The notes under the pieces were generated by a model. That model made no database searches, was not told where the DNA came from, and saw only the letters and a list, made by a program, of their open reading frames with translations. Positions 5,823-46,011 of a DNA stretch of 46,011 bases are shown here, piece after piece. The position numbers and the translations under genes are program-made. Origin of the DNA: a virus; the IMG/VR virus record IMGVR_UViG_3300008516_000138, positions 1-46,011 of that record; one strand, given 5' to 3'. The first letter of the stretch is position 1. Every line of letters begins with the position of its first letter.

Positions 5823-6512
5823 CTATATACGCCGCCTTCGCTGACTAATGAGAAGAGGAACAATGCTACCACCACCATTCCCAGATGCCGGTCTAAATGC
5901 CAGAATCTTAAAAGGAATGGTTTCTGAAATACTGGGGGTAATTGTATGTGCTTCCTCGGTTGCGTCGGTTTGTAAGTGCTCCTGCATATAAATCCATTCA
6001 AAATATGTAGGACGACAATAATCCACCCGTTCCGTACATGCCGGAGCACCATCTGGTGTGCCTGATATAGCTTCCGTTGCATCTCCTCCACATATCGAAA
6101 CAATCATGCAATTATTGTTAGTTGGTGTTATCGGACCTGTATCTGCCCCCTCAGTTTCTCCTAAATCCCCACTAACCTCGGCTACATCCAAGGGAGTACT
6201 CTGATCTACACCGCTATAAGCAGCCGCGAAAGCAGCACCTTGTTCATTTGCGACAAAAAGATTAGTGAGTGTCCACGTGGCGCCTTCGCCACTCGCTATT
6301 TTGTAAAGCACAAATAACGTAGAATCCAAACCGCCATTCTCTAGGGATAATAACGTCCAGCCCGCAGGGGTTTCATCTCCAGTATTTGTTGTCGCTGTTA
6401 GTAAACCAATTACGATCAAATCCCCATTAGTAAGGCCAGCGGGGGCGGTAACTTCGGGTGAAACCGTAGCCCCAAAGGATGAAGTTGCCATCGAACGAAA
6501 TGCTATACCCAT
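5823..6512 (-). CDS. Beta-sandwich tail-associated protein
   Basis: 229 aa. A recognisable surface-protein pattern: SPEVTAPAGLTNGDLIVIGLL, TPAGWTLL, LFVLYKIASGEGATWTLTN, and AAYSGVDQSTPLDV, which recurs in phage tail and fibre-associated proteins. It ends with a basic QRRRRI. It directly precedes the beta-helix spike gene (adjacent stop and start), suggesting they act together in host recognition. It follows the structured intergenic region. Confidence 0.65.
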   Translation of the reverse strand: MGIAFRSMATSSFGATVSPEVTAPAGLTNGDLIVIGLLTATTNTGDETPAGWTLLSLENGGLDSTLFVLYKIASGEGATWTLTNLFVANEQGAAFAAAYSGVDQSTPLDVAEVSGDLGETEGADTGPITPTNNNCMIVSICGGDATEAISGTPDGAPACTERVDYCRPTYFEWIYMQEHLQTDATEEAHTITPSISETIPFKILAFRPASGNGGGSIVPLLISQRRRRI

Positions 6513-6533
6513 CTAAAATCCAACTCCTCTACA

Positions 6534-6890
6534 CCCCGCAGCCAGACTCGAACTGACAAAACTCCAGTTAACCTTACGACACCGGAAAATGGAAAACGGG
6601 GGAGAACCGCAGGATACCCGTCGGCATCCCAAACGACCGAATGCCAAAACGCCCTGAATCGGCAACGAGACGCACGCATCTCTTTCAGTCGACGGTCTCC
6701 CCGCCTACGTAGGTGGCCGCAAGTCCGTCAACTCTTGGCCCTTCATTACCGGACATTAAGGGTTGTCCGTGACCCGACCTTCGGGGGCATAGCACATAGT
6801 ACTCATATAAAGTACTCATCAACCCGAAGGAACCTTTTACAGTGTGCGCATAACGCCCACCGAGCTCCTTCCGCTCCGTGGCGGATGAGC
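6534..6890 (-). ncRNA. Structured intergenic RNA candidate with tRNA-like T-arm
   Basis: This 377-bp gap (6513-6889) has no convincing gene. On the minus strand it shows a hairpin at 6864-6890, an 8-bp hairpin 6778-6785/6823-6830 and an H-type pseudoknot at 6739-6769 (CGGACA/TGTCCG with CCCTT/AAGGG). A 7-bp helix (6599-6605 with 6696-6702) closes a domain holding GGCAT/ATGCC and CCGA/TCGG pairings. The 3' end has a textbook T-arm (6541-6557, loop TTCGAGT, stem GTCAG/CTGGC) and an acceptor-like TGCGGGG at 6534-6540. It lacks the conserved tmRNA start and tag and makes no normal cloverleaf. It could be a tmRNA-like RNA, an ornate phage RNA, or a tRNA relic beside other structure. Folding was by eye. 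Confidence 0.45.
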
Positions 6891-7090
6891 TATACATTTA
6901 CCCTGGCCGCAAGCAACGACCCGCTATCAAGTAATTCGTCAATAGGGCAATTTTCAATCTCTTGTAAATTACCTTGATGAAACCTCTCCAGCTCTTTTCG
7001 AAGAAAAGCCTTTGGATCCGGGGCAAGTGCAATTAATTCTCGATCAATTAGCAATGCTACCTTGAACGGTTTTTCCCTTTTCTTACCCAT
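6890..7090 (-). CDS. Hypothetical protein, 66 aa
   Basis: Starts MGKKREKPFKVALLIDREL at 7090, 21 bases after tRNA-Thr. It has a basic N-terminus, then KAFLRKELERFHQGNLQEIENC, a probable long helix. Its TAG stop is the first part of a TAGCTC that begins the structured region below. No family recognised. Moderate support from composition and an SD-like GGGGGAG. Confidence 0.55.
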   Translation of the reverse strand: MGKKREKPFKVALLIDRELIALAPDPKAFLRKELERFHQGNLQEIENCPIDELLDSGSLLAARVNV

Positions 7091-7111
7091 GTTTTCTTCA
7101 CTCCCCCTCAA

Positions 7112-7184
7112 GCCGACACGAGGCATCGAACCCCGGACATCCTGATTACAAATCAGGTGCTCTGCCAAACTGAGCTATGCCGGC
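7112..7184 (-). tRNA. tRNA-Thr (TGT)
   Basis: Complete cloverleaf on the minus strand. Acceptor GCCGGCA/TGTCGGC, D-arm GCTC/GAGC, anticodon stem CCTGA/TCAGG with loop TTTGTAA (anticodon TGT), T-arm CGGGG/CCTCG with loop TTCGATG. No CCA is encoded. The gene above it terminates inside its first ten bases. Confidence 0.95.
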
Positions 7185-8055: not shown

Positions 8056-8739
8056 CTATAACTCAAGCTGTTGTACCTTCCCTATTTCTTGATCATCAAA
8101 CAAACGGGGCTGCTGATATGCCAACTCTATCCGCTTGCAAGATATGTCAAAATATTTAGGTTCTATTTCTATGCCGATGAACTTACGGCCAAGATTCGCA
8201 CAGGCGACACCGGTTGTGCCGGAGCCCATGAAGGGGTCGAGAATGGTGAGAGGATGGGGAAGCAAATTAATACACCAAGTAATGAGAGCAACAGGTTTTT
8301 GAGTAGGATGCTCTTTGCCATCTTGAACTGCGCGTGATCGAGAATAATCAAAAATGCGCCCGGCTTTCTGCTGTGAACTCCATGCGACTTCAAAATCTGC
8401 CAGACTGAATTGTCGTTGTCCCTTGTCCCAGATGAGCCATTGCATGGTTGGGGGCAGGAGGTCGGTGAAATAATTACCCCCCCAAAAAATCTGGTGCTTT
8501 GAGCGTTCACGGAGCATGTCAAAAATCTTTCGGGGGGGGGCGCATCGATCCCATTGACTTTCGCCATAGAACTTCCAGCCCCATTTGCCCTTATTTTTCG
8601 CAGCAGCCTCGTCGGCACCAATTCCATATGGTGGATCGGTTACTACCGCATCCACTGGCCCGAGCGTCGGTAGGATCTCTGGGCAATCGCCGAGATAGAG
8701 CGTCGCGTCACCGATCTGTTCTGTTCGCCAATTCCCCAT
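8056..8739 (-). CDS. DNA methyltransferase (DPPY, N6-A or N4-C, beta-type order)
   Basis: 227 aa from ATG 8739. Catalytic motif TDPPYG at residues 34-39, HPTQKP at 144-149, then the SAM-binding motif ILDPFMGSGTTGVA at about 166-179. Catalytic motif before SAM motif is the order of beta-class amino-methyltransferases. It transfers a methyl group to adenine N6 or cytosine N4 in DNA. No partner restriction enzyme is adjacent, so self-protection or epigenetic control is likely. An in-frame TTG at 8745 lies in the AAGGGGAACTTGGTAATG element and could be the true start. Confidence 0.9.
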   Translation of the reverse strand: MGNWRTEQIGDATLYLGDCPEILPTLGPVDAVVTDPPYGIGADEAAAKNKGKWGWKFYGESQWDRCAPPRKIFDMLRERSKHQIFWGGNYFTDLLPPTMQWLIWDKGQRQFSLADFEVAWSSQQKAGRIFDYSRSRAVQDGKEHPTQKPVALITWCINLLPHPLTILDPFMGSGTTGVACANLGRKFIGIEIEPKYFDISCKRIELAYQQPRLFDDQEIGKVQQLEL

Positions 8740-8753
8740 TACCAAGTTCCCCT

Positions 8754-9569
8754 TTACACCGCTACCCGGGCCCCTACCATCCTCGGGTCATACCAGAGTC
8801 TTCGAAAAGACATCCAATCTTGCTTTCTCTTTCCCGTGCGGTCCCGATAGAGCATGGCAAAAGGCATAATGCCTAAATCACATACCGATTGCAGCCGCTT
8901 CTCCGCATCCTCAAACGAGTCGTCGGGATACCCGATTAGGACATAACAGCGAACCTTGTGAGCACCACCTATCAATCCCGCTTCTCGCAACATCCGAGCG
9001 ACCAGCCGTAGAGGTTCATAATCATCAGGGGTGTCATACGCTACAAACATCCTTTTGAGCCGCAATTTCAAAAGCTCCACAATATGCCAATCCCGCAACT
9101 GCGCCGCTTCCAATCCCCCGGTCAAACAAGTCGGTTCCGGTTGCCGGCGTAACATCTCAAAAACTGCCCGTATGTGATCGTCTGAACATGCCAACAGATT
9201 ACTGTCTAACACGTTCCAGCCCTCGCGGATCGGCAATTCCCGAATCCCACCCTCGCGTTTCCATACATCACAAAACCAACACCGGTTCGGACATCCTCGG
9301 GAAGTAATCACGTATCCCGGTTTCAGATACATTCCGGGTTCAAACTCCCCTCCAACCATCCCGGTTGCAGGACCGCCCATTTTGACAACCGGGGCATGAT
9401 GTCGCCAATTCTCGGCCAAATATTCAGCCCAACCCAAATCCCAAGAAAAAGTCACCGAGATATGTACCTCATCACAATCTGGCACAAAGAAATCGGGCAA
9501 ACCCACATAGGCGTAGCGATCCACGGGAGTAGCGTTCGTCCTATGCGGGAAAACCCGGATGATTTTCAC
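8754..9569 (-). CDS. Radical SAM protein
   Basis: 271 aa. The cluster motif CPNRCWFC (Cys 93, 97, 100; CxxxCxxC) binds the 4Fe-4S that cleaves SAM to a radical. The N-terminal 85 residues (DRYAYVGLPDFFVPDCDEVHI, then VVKMGGPATG) look like the cobalamin-binding-type or Rossmann leader of B12/radical SAM enzymes, but lack an obvious DxHxxG. Later motifs CLTGGLEAAQLRD and RCYVLIGYPDDSFEDAEKRL fit the barrel. Starts at GTG 9569 overlapping the previous stop (GTGTGA). Substrate unknown; the nearby DNA-modification genes make nucleotide or tRNA modification possible. Confidence 0.85.
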   Translation of the reverse strand: MKIIRVFPHRTNATPVDRYAYVGLPDFFVPDCDEVHISVTFSWDLGWAEYLAENWRHHAPVVKMGGPATGMVGGEFEPGMYLKPGYVITSRGCPNRCWFCDVWKREGGIRELPIREGWNVLDSNLLACSDDHIRAVFEMLRRQPEPTCLTGGLEAAQLRDWHIVELLKLRLKRMFVAYDTPDDYEPLRLVARMLREAGLIGGAHKVRCYVLIGYPDDSFEDAEKRLQSVCDLGIMPFAMLYRDRTGKRKQDWMSFRRLWYDPRMVGARVAV

Positions 9570-17629: not shown

Positions 17630-17835
17630 TTCCCCTGCTCCTTTAGCCGCTCGGCTTCTGCCCGTACCCATGCTATCCTAAGAGCTGGCGCGAACTTACA
17701 AATGACGTCCGCCATCTCATCTATCCCCTCTTTCCGGGCTTCAGTGGCTACGGTGCGCAAAATGCCTTTCGTGATTGCTATACTTCTCGATCGAAGAATC
17801 GTTTCTGCTGCATCGTGTATCCGTCCCTCAATCAT
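17626..17835 (-). CDS. Small helical protein, 69 aa (EARKEGIDE motif)
   Basis: ATG behind AGGAGGAACC. MIEGRIHDAAETILRSRSIA, then LRTVATEARKEGIDEMADVI; all helix by appearance. The segment LRTVATEARKEGIDE recurs nearly unchanged in the broken frame at 19973-20176 (LRTVAAEARKEGIDE) and more loosely in the Lar-like protein (VAAEAREEGIEEAVD). This marks a shuffled short module. Function unknown. Confidence 0.6.
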   Translation of the reverse strand: MIEGRIHDAAETILRSRSIAITKGILRTVATEARKEGIDEMADVICKFAPALRIAWVRAEAERLKEQGK

Positions 17836-23201: not shown

Positions 23202-23291
23202 TCAAAGTGTCGTCGCGTACCACAGGAATATCCCCATCCAGGCAAGAGCGTAGATACCGTAGATCGCTTTCTCGACTTTAGGATCGATCAT
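23202..23291 (-). CDS. 29-aa single-span membrane peptide
   Basis: MIDPKVEKAIYGIYALAWMG, then IFLWYATTL. The ATG overlaps the HNH stop (TGATG) with AAGG seven bases upstream, and the peptide is one membrane span with a short charged N-terminus. Early phage peptides like this can act on host membrane proteins. Too small for homology judgement. Confidence 0.5.
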   Translation of the reverse strand: MIDPKVEKAIYGIYALAWMGIFLWYATTL

Positions 23292-24103
23292 CACGCAACC
23301 TTTAACATTAATTGTTCTAAATATCTTTTCCAAAATTTACGATTATGATTTGTTTTTGTATGACAACTTCTACATAACGATATTAAATTATCAAAACTCA
23401 GATTTTTTTTATCATAATCAATATGATGAACACATAATCTTGTGCCATTCTCTGGCGCACCACAAACCATACAAGTACGTTGATCTCGATTCCGTATCGT
23501 TTCTTTTAAAGACTTTCTCCAGTCAAATGGATATGGTTCGAATGATATTCCCCCACGCCATGAATGTATTTGCTCTCCGTGTCGTTGACGCTGTACTGCG
23601 TCATAACATTTTCTACTACAATATTTCCTTACACGACCAGATCTCCTGATTTTGCAACGCTCCACTTGGAAACGAATTCCACATTTTTCACATATCAAAA
23701 AAACTCTCGGAATTCTTATTCTGCGTTTATAAATACTTAAACATTTTTTTCCACAGGTTATTTGATGAGAAGAAGGCACTACTTCAAAAATATTATTACA
23801 AATTAGACAATATCTTTTTTCTCGAACTCGCTTGTCTGGCCAAGGACCAGATCGTAAAATTGCCCCACATTCTTTACTACATGTTTTCTGATTTGGTTTC
23901 CGCGACAGATACACTTTGCCGCACACAGCACATGCCCTCTCGGATGGGCCACCATGCCAATTGGGATGTTTGTTACCACATTGATAGCGAGATAACCACT
24001 GACCATAACATTTGCTTGAACAAAATCCATAATCCCGCCCATGATAGCAACATGATCTATCTTGTTGGGGAGTTAAAGGTTTGCCACATATTTTACAATT
24101 CAT
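23291..24103 (-). CDS. HNH endonuclease with tandem zinc knuckles
   Basis: 270 aa. The N-terminal 175 residues contain four repeated Cys modules (CKICGKPL, CAVCGKVY, CLICNNIF, CEKCGIRF), each followed by a CS--C or CGKKC pair. The C-terminus has the HNH core: CMVCGAPENGTRLCVHHIDYD, NLSFDNLISLCRSCHTKTNH. Arrayed fingers probably give DNA specificity to the nuclease. Much more A/T-rich than the neighbouring phage genes, as expected of a mobile homing nuclease. Transcribed from the strong promoter at 24142-24170. Confidence 0.85.
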   Translation of the reverse strand: MNCKICGKPLTPQQDRSCCYHGRDYGFCSSKCYGQWLSRYQCGNKHPNWHGGPSERACAVCGKVYLSRKPNQKTCSKECGAILRSGPWPDKRVREKRYCLICNNIFEVVPSSHQITCGKKCLSIYKRRIRIPRVFLICEKCGIRFQVERCKIRRSGRVRKYCSRKCYDAVQRQRHGEQIHSWRGGISFEPYPFDWRKSLKETIRNRDQRTCMVCGAPENGTRLCVHHIDYDKKNLSFDNLISLCRSCHTKTNHNRKFWKRYLEQLMLKVA

Positions 24104-42074: not shown

Positions 42075-42293
42075 CTATTTTGTGTTTCTATGGCGCTGAA
42101 TCATCCAAGTCTTGAAGATGTCACAGAAAAGGCCATCATCAGACTTCCTCGTACTTACGTTGGCTACAAGTGTCGCCTGATACGCGGCGAGAAATTCTCT
42201 ATCTGAGACGGGAATTGAAGTCTCTAGCTCGAGTTTGTCCAATAATTTGTTATCTTCAAGCATCACTTCGGCCACCTGGTTATCGTAATTCAT
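42075..42293 (-). CDS. Small head-module protein, 72 aa
   Basis: MNYDNQVAEVMLEDNKLLDK, then LAAYQATLVANVSTRKSDDG. ATG overlaps the HNH stop (ATGA), but the gene probably belonged directly after the Bbp19-like gene before HNH insertion. Mostly helical, unrecognised. Confidence 0.6.
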   Translation of the reverse strand: MNYDNQVAEVMLEDNKLLDKLELETSIPVSDREFLAAYQATLVANVSTRKSDDGLFCDIFKTWMIQRHRNTK

Positions 42294-43123
42294 GCCGTTT
42301 TCTCCTTTCTCGTGAAATTTGTATCCCAAAGGTTAACAACCTTCCTAAAATGATTTATGAATTCCTCCTGCGCCATTGTACCTTTGGCCCAATTGCATAC
42401 AGCACAGGAAGGAACCACATTTCCCCTTATATATCCCTGAGTATTATCTATTCTATCGAGACCGTTATAATAAAAATCACCATTGCCACTTCGATTCTTG
42501 ATATGATTGGATGGTTTATTGCCACAATAAAAACAGGGCATGGTCATAATTTGCTTGGCTTCCTGGTTGGTAAGTTCAAAAGAATAATCACGTCGCCGAG
42601 CATTACTTTTTATCTGAGCTAGTGCTCGCCGAAACGCCGCCTCTCCCTTCCCCAATCTTTGTAAAAGTGATTCCCTGTGCAAACAACCACAACTTTTTGT
42701 ATTGCCTGTTCTTAAAGCACGACCACTCACAATTGTTCCCTTACCACAATCACATCGACAAATCCAATAAACCATTCCTGGTTTTGTTTCTGCTCTTTTT
42801 ATTACAGTTAATTTCCCGTATTTCTTTCCCGTTTCATTTTTCCCAGCTTTCTTGCCAAGACGTTTAGCTCTGATTAGGGCTCTGGTTTTACCGGAAACAG
42901 TATGTCCTTTGAGTACCGCCGACATTTTATTCCTTGTAACTTCATCGGGACGATTCCCCGTGTGCGCCTTCGATAGATTCTCTCGGTGTTCTTCCGTGAA
43001 TACCATACCCTTGCGCGCCTCACTGATTTTCATACACGTCTCTTTTGGGAGTGAACCCATCCTTCTCCTGGCCGCAGCTATTCTGCCCCGCGTTTTCTGG
43101 GAAAGCGTCCACCCGCCCCTCAT
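42290..43123 (-). CDS. HNH homing endonuclease with NUMOD3 motifs
   Basis: 277 aa. N-terminal NUMOD3-type repeats (ISEARKGMVFTEEHRENLSK, then HTVSGKTRALIRAKRLGKKA), a zinc-ribbon middle (CRCDCGKGTIVSGRALRTG, KSCGCLHRES) and a C-terminal HNH core, CFYCGNKP, NGLDRIDNTQGYIRGNVVPS. Inserted in the head operon between the Bbp19-like gene and the scaffold region, overlapping both neighbours by ATGA. Its own AAGGAG decides ATG 43123. Confidence 0.85.
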   Translation of the reverse strand: MRGGWTLSQKTRGRIAAARRRMGSLPKETCMKISEARKGMVFTEEHRENLSKAHTGNRPDEVTRNKMSAVLKGHTVSGKTRALIRAKRLGKKAGKNETGKKYGKLTVIKRAETKPGMVYWICRCDCGKGTIVSGRALRTGNTKSCGCLHRESLLQRLGKGEAAFRRALAQIKSNARRRDYSFELTNQEAKQIMTMPCFYCGNKPSNHIKNRSGNGDFYYNGLDRIDNTQGYIRGNVVPSCAVCNWAKGTMAQEEFINHFRKVVNLWDTNFTRKEKTA

Positions 43124-43416
43124 TCTTTCTCCTTCTCTTGATTTTCCCACATCTTCACGGGCTCATCTTGCCCCATGAAATGTTGAATCATATTGACCAG
43201 ATTATCTTCACGGATAATCCCTAATCGCTTCAAAAACCAATTGGCAAAATTGCGTAAATAGTGAGCCGGGGCCATATCTGCAGGATTTATTTCTTCCCAA
43301 TACCCACACTTCATCAAAATGTCACATGCTACCACCTGGCCGGCGTACTGAGAGAACACGGCCTTGTACGCCCGGGCAATATCGGCCTCGGTAAGTTTCT
43401 GTCCCGCAAACATCAT
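43120..43416 (-). CDS. Bbp19-like head protein
   Basis: 98 aa. AYKAVFSQYAGQVVACDILMKCGYWE, then AHYLRNFANWFLKRLGII follow the Bbp19 pattern (VF-T--G--VL-DLL---G, then R-----IL). These small proteins sit next to the portal in podoviruses. Overlaps the portal stop (ATGA). Precise function is not known. Confidence 0.65.
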   Translation of the reverse strand: MMFAGQKLTEADIARAYKAVFSQYAGQVVACDILMKCGYWEEINPADMAPAHYLRNFANWFLKRLGIIREDNLVNMIQHFMGQDEPVKMWENQEKEKE

Positions 43417-45531: not shown

Positions 45532-46011
45532 TTATCTCAACGAATTGTACCGTCTTGTCCCTTCCAGCGGATCATATCGGTCTCGCCGCTGCTGCTGCAA
45601 CAACATCGGCACCGGGTCTCGAGCGTCTGGCCGCAGGTCCGGAGCAAACAACCGCACCATCACGTACTGCAACGCATCGTGAATGTGCGAGTACTTGTTC
45701 TTCAGTATGTTGGGCAGAAACTCACCCATCAGACTCTTGTTCTGCGGGTAACAGTATCCACCCAAAAACCCGTTGATCAGTCGTGTGCAGCTGGGATCAA
45801 TCAATATCCCGTCTATCCGCCCCAACATCTGATCCACGGATTCTATTCGAGCCTGTACATTCTGCTCACTCGGGGCCACCGCTACCCCGCACTGAGCCAT
45901 CAGCTTGGCGTTACTGGTAAATCCGCCCTCTTTCTTTGAGTACTCAGCATTCCCCGCAGGGTCCGCCCAGTGCTCGACAGCTTTTGCCCCCGGAAACGCC
46001 AGGTTCATTTG
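45532..46011 (-). CDS. terL: Terminase large subunit, C-terminal part (cut by right edge)
   Basis: 159 codons to the stop, open to the window edge (so the Met at 46008 is not the start). HWADPAGNAEYSKKEGGFTS, GVAVAPSEQNVQARIESVDQ, ILIDPSCTRLINGFLGGYCY and SHIHDALQYVMVRLF are the RNase H-like nuclease domain with its acidic residues and the terminal SH-DALQY. Cuts the concatemer during packaging. Pairs with the ATPase end at 1-134. Confidence 0.9.
   Translation of the reverse strand, partial: QMNLAFPGAKAVEHWADPAGNAEYSKKEGGFTSNAKLMAQCGVAVAPSEQNVQARIESVDQMLGRIDGILIDPSCTRLINGFLGGYCYPQNKSLMGEFLPNILKNKYSHIHDALQYVMVRLFAPDLRPDARDPVPMLLQQQRRDRYDPLEGTRRYNSLR

Follow-up and report, generated by a model that had tools for sequence, protein, structure and literature searches.

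ROOL and GOLLD are large, ornate RNAs of unknown function that are encoded by phages, often near tRNA islands; GOLLD RNAs are in many cases longer than 800 nt (PMC12286853). Few large structured RNAs have been described from phages, and the roles of the known ones are unexplained. Stable non-tRNA RNAs are also found among the tRNA genes of T4, RNAs C and D, both of which are much shorter than the 334 nt of the RNA described here.

The window, by which we mean the whole stretch of DNA analyzed (46,011 bases), is an uncultured phage record of IMG/VR, IMGVR_UViG_3300008516_000138. Its head, tail, and portal genes (portal: phrog_332) are on the minus strand, and ARAGORN finds three tRNAs in it. 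A structured RNA of 334 nt is very probably encoded on the minus strand between positions 6891 and 6558. Strong conservation begins at AGCUCAUC and ends at GGAGUUUU, and these two points thus set the limits of the unit. The relative with which the window is compared is a 47-kb contig, IMGVR_UViG_3300031553_000006 (L004/L011), which was reached via the portal protein of the window (91% portal identity). BLASTN within that record reveals a homologue of 309 nt after the same tRNA-Thr, and a covariance model places this homologue at L011:6511-6819, minus strand.

In both phages, tRNA-Thr(TGT) lies upstream of the RNA (7111-7184 in the window, minus strand), and the remaining neighbors differ. On the 5' side, a 66-aa ORF separates tRNA-Thr from the RNA in the window (6890-7090, minus strand), and its stop codon touches the first bases of the RNA. 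In the relative, this ORF is absent and tRNA-Thr is immediately followed by a second, degenerate tRNA (L011:6876-6949, minus strand), which matches the tRNA-Sec model weakly (24.7 bits, under the gathering score) and is not called by ARAGORN. On the 3' side, the gene directly downstream in the window encodes a 229-aa protein (5823-6512, minus strand) that has no homologue in the relative's record, whereas the homologue in the relative is followed by a short ORF and then by a 376-aa protein with weak β-helix similarity. The genes downstream of the RNA are presumed to be tail genes. The sequence CTTGCGGCCA occurs twice at this locus, at 6898-6930 (where the 66-aa ORF ends, shortly before the RNA begins) and at 6704-6730 (P5, in the invariant core).

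Several other features of the window were observed in the course of this comparison. tRNA-Met(cat) and tRNA-Asn are encoded near the left end of the window, at 2116-2191; the corresponding place in the relative, L011:2041-2116, encodes tRNA-Ile(gat). The window ends (1-114 and 45872-46011) correspond to L011 967-1080 and 1-140, such that about 0.8 kb is missing between them; the right end carries a piece of the terminase large subunit, and the record is probably not complete but cut inside or beside the terminase gene. A radical-SAM-type protein (phrog_9298) is encoded at 8754-9569 and is conserved in the relative; its gene adjoins a DNA methyltransferase gene (N6_N4_Mtase, 8056-8745). Between 16000 and 21000, short stretches of up to 49 nt are repeated, with three copies at 17714, 19750, and 20070. 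These repeats are within early-type ORFs, are common to the relative, and probably represent duplicated protein modules. An HNH endonuclease is identified by PHROGs at 23291-24103, and endonuclease-like genes at 664-1140 and 42290-43150 appear GIY-YIG-like and HNH-like, respectively, by eye only.

The predicted fold of the RNA is a multi-branched molecule in which a long-range helix, P6, would close an invariant core (all helices on the minus strand, described from 5' to 3'). The first hairpin, P2 (6870-6885), reads UCCGC-CACGGA-GCGGA in the window and UCUAC-CACGGA-GUAGA in the relative, and therefore contains two compensatory pairs around an unchanged CACGGA loop. This loop recalls CsrB and RsmZ, decoy RNAs that soak up the CsrA/RsmA protein via ANGGA motifs in hairpin loops, and one could imagine that the phage RNA is likewise a decoy for a host regulator of this kind. 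Four ANGGA motifs are found at the same places in both phages (p about 0.03), three of the four are ACGGA (chance 0.002-0.005 by letter shuffles), and two ACGGA motifs are in hairpin loops, including the hexaloop of P2. Total GGA content is not enriched, however, a decoy would need neither a long invariant core nor a pseudoknot, and it would require a host that has CsrA; taken together, we consider a decoy very unlikely.

P2 is followed by hairpin P3, GUG.GCGU/GCGC.CAC (6844-6860), with one U-G to C-G change, and by the long hairpin P4, formed in the window by CCUUCGGG/CCCGAAGG (6778-6830). In the hand alignment, P4 of the relative is a short CCCCC/GGGGG helix, in which CCUU/AAGG is replaced by CCCC/GGGG. 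The core contains hairpin P5, GGCCAAG/CUUGCGGCC, with a 10-nt loop AGUUGACGGA (6715-6740); the 5' strand of P6, GGGGAGACCGU (6692-6702); hairpin P8, GGGAUGCC-GACG-GGUAUCCU (6611-6630); and the 3' strand of P6, GCGGUUCUCCCC (6599-6610), all of them invariant. A 7-bp long-range helix, 6599-6605/6696-6702, had been proposed in a preliminary description of the region; it is unchanged in the relative and is extended by 4 bp at 6607-6610/6692-6695. The core also contains a palindrome, CCUACGUAGG, which taken alone is not significant. Between the 5' strand of P6 and P8 lies a variable domain (6631-6691), which is branched in the window but forms one hairpin in the relative; a CGUG loop is common to both (GAGAUG-CGUG-CGUCUC and GGGCUG-CGUG-CGGCUC). 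The last hairpin, P9 (6558-6587), consists of UUCCGGU/ACYGGAG followed by UUUU and shows one G-U to G-C change. P9 is terminator-like but has a large loop and was not flagged by the terminator scan. It competes for the same bases with a closing helix, P1, in which AGCUC (6887-6891) pairs with GAGUU (6560-6564).

Two blocks, 6692-6743 (52 nt) and 6590-6630 (41 nt), are identical in both phages. The length of these blocks is not used as proof, since head genes of the two phages share identical runs of up to 88 nt. Outside the identical blocks, changes in helices mostly preserve pairing. With two family members, in which most core helices never vary, the invariant core helices remain predictions.

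Between P4 and P5, an H-type pseudoknot at 6750-6775 (minus strand) is predicted from GGGU/ACCC and CGGACA/UGUCCG. A pseudoknot had been suggested at 6739-6769, and the region is indeed the correct one, although a different loop partner is better supported. In the best-supported pairing, the loop sequence ACCC (6760-6763) pairs with GGGU (6772-6775), which is upstream of it, and the stem is formed by 6764-6769/6750-6755. The relative contains two copies of this pseudoknot, as its extra 33 nt are in part a second copy that is 80% identical to that of the window over 30 nt. All ten pairs hold in each of the three copies, of which the window has one and the relative two, with one double change and a few single changes, and sliding the pairing partners reduces pairing to 22-47%. 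A shuffle control on the three sequences, in which 334 of 500 shuffles reach the observed value, is uninformative. The downstream partner originally proposed, AAGGG (6739-6743), forms 5 bp in the window and, by reading, about 3 bp in the relative, and is a plausible alternative partner in the window that is weaker in the relative.

Folding of the single sequence provides weak support when taken alone: compared with shuffles, the minus strand has a z-score of -2.3 and the plus strand one of -0.7. Aligning the same gap in the related phage, as the preliminary description had proposed, gives a clearer result, with consensus-fold z-scores from -3.9 to -6.0. For the hand alignment, RNAalifold compared with column shuffles yields z = -6.0, with 72 pairs and none broken, and the plus strand of this alignment yields z = -2.6. 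The hand alignment was built with helices in mind, so the fair values are those of the MAFFT alignment, which are -4.7 when the 33-nt insert of the relative is taken out and -3.9 when it is left in. By comparison, 18 coding control stretches from the same two phages range from +1.3 to -2.9. The G-U/G-C exchanges in P3, P9, and the pseudoknot stem pair on the minus strand only. Compensatory changes do occur, but their count is not used as proof on its own, since double changes are about as numerous in coding controls (9 in one control).

These data bear on the possibility that the region contains no functional RNA and is instead a decayed gene or tRNA region that folds incidentally. The modest single-sequence z-score, the restriction to two sequences, and an 89-aa frame that the relative keeps across the region would fit such an origin. 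Incidental folding is nevertheless improbable, given consensus-fold z-scores of -4 to -6 against controls, invariant blocks located beside freely changing helix tips, gaps that are not multiples of three, and a pseudoknot that is duplicated in the relative with matching changes in its stem. The frame in question, L011:6508-6777, is the longest over the region in the relative and is interrupted in the window. Gap lengths between the two RNA sequences include 1, 2, 7, and 28 nt, and a protein reading of the region was rejected because these indels break the frames. The earlier impression that 6534-6890 holds no convincing ORF is confirmed, as no consistent gene crosses the region, and comparison with the relative reveals no conserved protein across 6685-6897. 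A conserved fold, compensatory change, and the absence of a protein frame, which are general features of structured noncoding RNAs, are all present here, on two sequences.

The RNA was at first described as ending in a tRNA-like T-arm. A T-arm of genuine tRNA type is indeed present at 6541-6557, adjacent to an acceptor-like TGCGGGG at 6534-6540, in a 26-nt segment that is found in the window only (6532-6557, minus strand). The motif is GTCAG-TTCGAGT-CTGGC, with one G-T pair in its GTCAG/CTGGC stem; in 350 nt of a single strand, about 0.005 such motifs are expected by chance, and the window has three further minus-strand matches to the motif, all of which are true tRNAs. The T-arm is not, however, the end of the conserved RNA, which stops at 6558. 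The 26-nt segment is absent from the relative and sits exactly between GUUUU and the UAGAGGA of the next gene. In addition, CCCCCG, the only evident acceptor partner of the T-arm, is already in helix P6, and the relative keeps P6 without a T-arm. As the T-arm is outside the conserved RNA, the latter is not a tRNA-like or tmRNA-like molecule. The T-arm itself is best read as the 3' end of a tRNA gene that was probably left over or captured, at a place where tRNAs come and go. An origin as the 3' exon of an intron-split tRNA was rejected, as no matching 5' half was found upstream by reading. An origin as an attP core is not favored, since no integrase is among the proteins scanned (part of the set) and the relative has no T-arm.

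The RNA does not correspond to a described family. A cmscan search of both phages with all 4227 families of Rfam 15 at E up to 10, of the kind called for at the outset, gives only tRNA and chance matches, with nothing credible in the region, and at Rfam's curated thresholds the window contains only tRNAs. That the RNA is neither a standard tRNA nor a tmRNA is upheld by Rfam and ARAGORN, which give no credible match, and Rfam likewise gives none to group I introns. An intact or intron-containing tRNA was rejected because ARAGORN, allowing introns of up to 1000 nt, finds only tRNA-Thr. ARAGORN finds no tmRNA at normal thresholds; a tag frame was discarded, as the tmRNA mode returns nothing and spurious permuted matches appear only at a halved threshold, and a tmRNA-type tRNA-like domain was discarded because the T-arm is missing in the relative and no acceptor 5' strand is free. 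Membership in GOLLD or ROOL fails in that neither covariance model matches. Group I and group II introns and described ribozymes were likewise rejected, with no Rfam match and an intergenic location in both phages. A self-processing or catalytic RNA of an undescribed kind, intron-like or self-cleaving, could be envisioned from the compact multi-branched fold, the pseudoknots, and the invariant internal loops, together with homing-type endonuclease genes elsewhere in the phage. An endonuclease gene is found neither in the RNA nor directly beside it, no Rfam intron or ribozyme model matches, and the RNA is not inside a gene in either phage; catalysis would seem very unlikely.

The distribution of the RNA appears narrow in exact-pattern and BLASTN searches, which could miss distant members and records very near the window. 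BLASTN (E up to 10) matches nothing among 50,697 phage and 72,556 plasmid records, and a 20-mer of the core is not found in GTDB genomes. Scans of IMG/VR with three core patterns recover only the one relative with the RNA; a short core pattern is shared by the IMG/VR records L012-L015 and L019, from which the rest of the RNA is absent. Searches for relatives through proteins yield a single long contig, together with fragments or distant records that do not contain the RNA. A covariance model run on related records recovers the two copies already known and no others, if a 5.8-bit match at E 0.5 is disregarded.

With regard to function, we give roughly even credence to a noncoding RNA of about 334 nt that stands alone, is encoded on the minus strand of a podovirus-like phage, is probably transcribed together with tRNA-Thr, and most likely acts in trans. 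Promoter and terminator scans reveal neither a promoter-like site nor a standard terminator for the RNA, and the lack of a promoter-like site directly upstream suggests that it is probably co-transcribed with the upstream tRNA-Thr. Processing would free the 5' side of the RNA, and the 3' hairpin with its U-run would end the transcript. The product would fold into the multi-branched molecule with at least one pseudoknot described above and could persist as a stable RNA during infection, binding itself or a partner via its invariant core. Action in trans is preferred because the place after the tRNA is kept while neighboring genes are exchanged, and because the fold is multi-branched with an invariant core.

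The main rival to action in trans is a cis-acting leader, that is, a structured 5' region of the transcript of the downstream presumed tail gene that would control termination or translation, for example by a possible switch between P9 and the closing helix P1. The 3' end of the RNA lies against the ribosome-binding site of the next gene, an arrangement that also fits a leader: TAGAGGA follows the RNA directly in the relative and after 26 nt in the window. P1 and P9 overlap, and the downstream genes, although different in sequence, may share a role, that of the relative having the β-helix similarity noted above. These genes are not homologous, however, whereas a leader is usually associated with genes of a single kind; the element is also larger and more branched than most leaders, and its own promoter was not found in the scans. 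A leader is thus possible, but we regard it as clearly the less probable of the two.

A more specific version of a trans-acting RNA is also conceivable, although it is rather unlikely: the RNA could represent a new phage RNA class that is much smaller than GOLLD, is produced during infection from a tRNA-containing transcript, and works via its invariant core (about 90 nt), perhaps in a dimeric or oligomeric form made of RNA alone. Returning to the broader reading of a stand-alone RNA that most likely acts in trans, a compact RNA with an invariant core that is kept amid different neighbors is tractable for probing and structure work.

Comparison with known systems shows a mixture of shared and distinct features. 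Similar to tmRNA, the new RNA has several hairpins, a pseudoknot, and a comparable length, and in the window a T-arm adjoins its 3' end; unlike tmRNA, it is matched by neither Rfam nor ARAGORN and its acceptor ends are not paired. With CsrB and RsmZ it shares ANGGA motifs in hairpin loops, and it differs from them in its few GGA motifs, its long invariant core, and its pseudoknot. In contrast to RNAs C and D of T4, it has no BLASTN match in cultured phages. A further resemblance is to ROOL and GOLLD, with which it shares an elaborate fold containing a pseudoknot and a setting in phage genomes near a tRNA, tRNA-Thr being directly upstream in both phages; the differences are its length of 334 nt, its two examples, and the lack of detectable similarity. 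RNA families that are missing from Rfam can thus be hidden next to the tRNA genes of uncultured phages, in gaps such as this one, and we read the present RNA as representing a new and small family of noncoding RNA from phages, in a setting comparable to that of GOLLD and ROOL.
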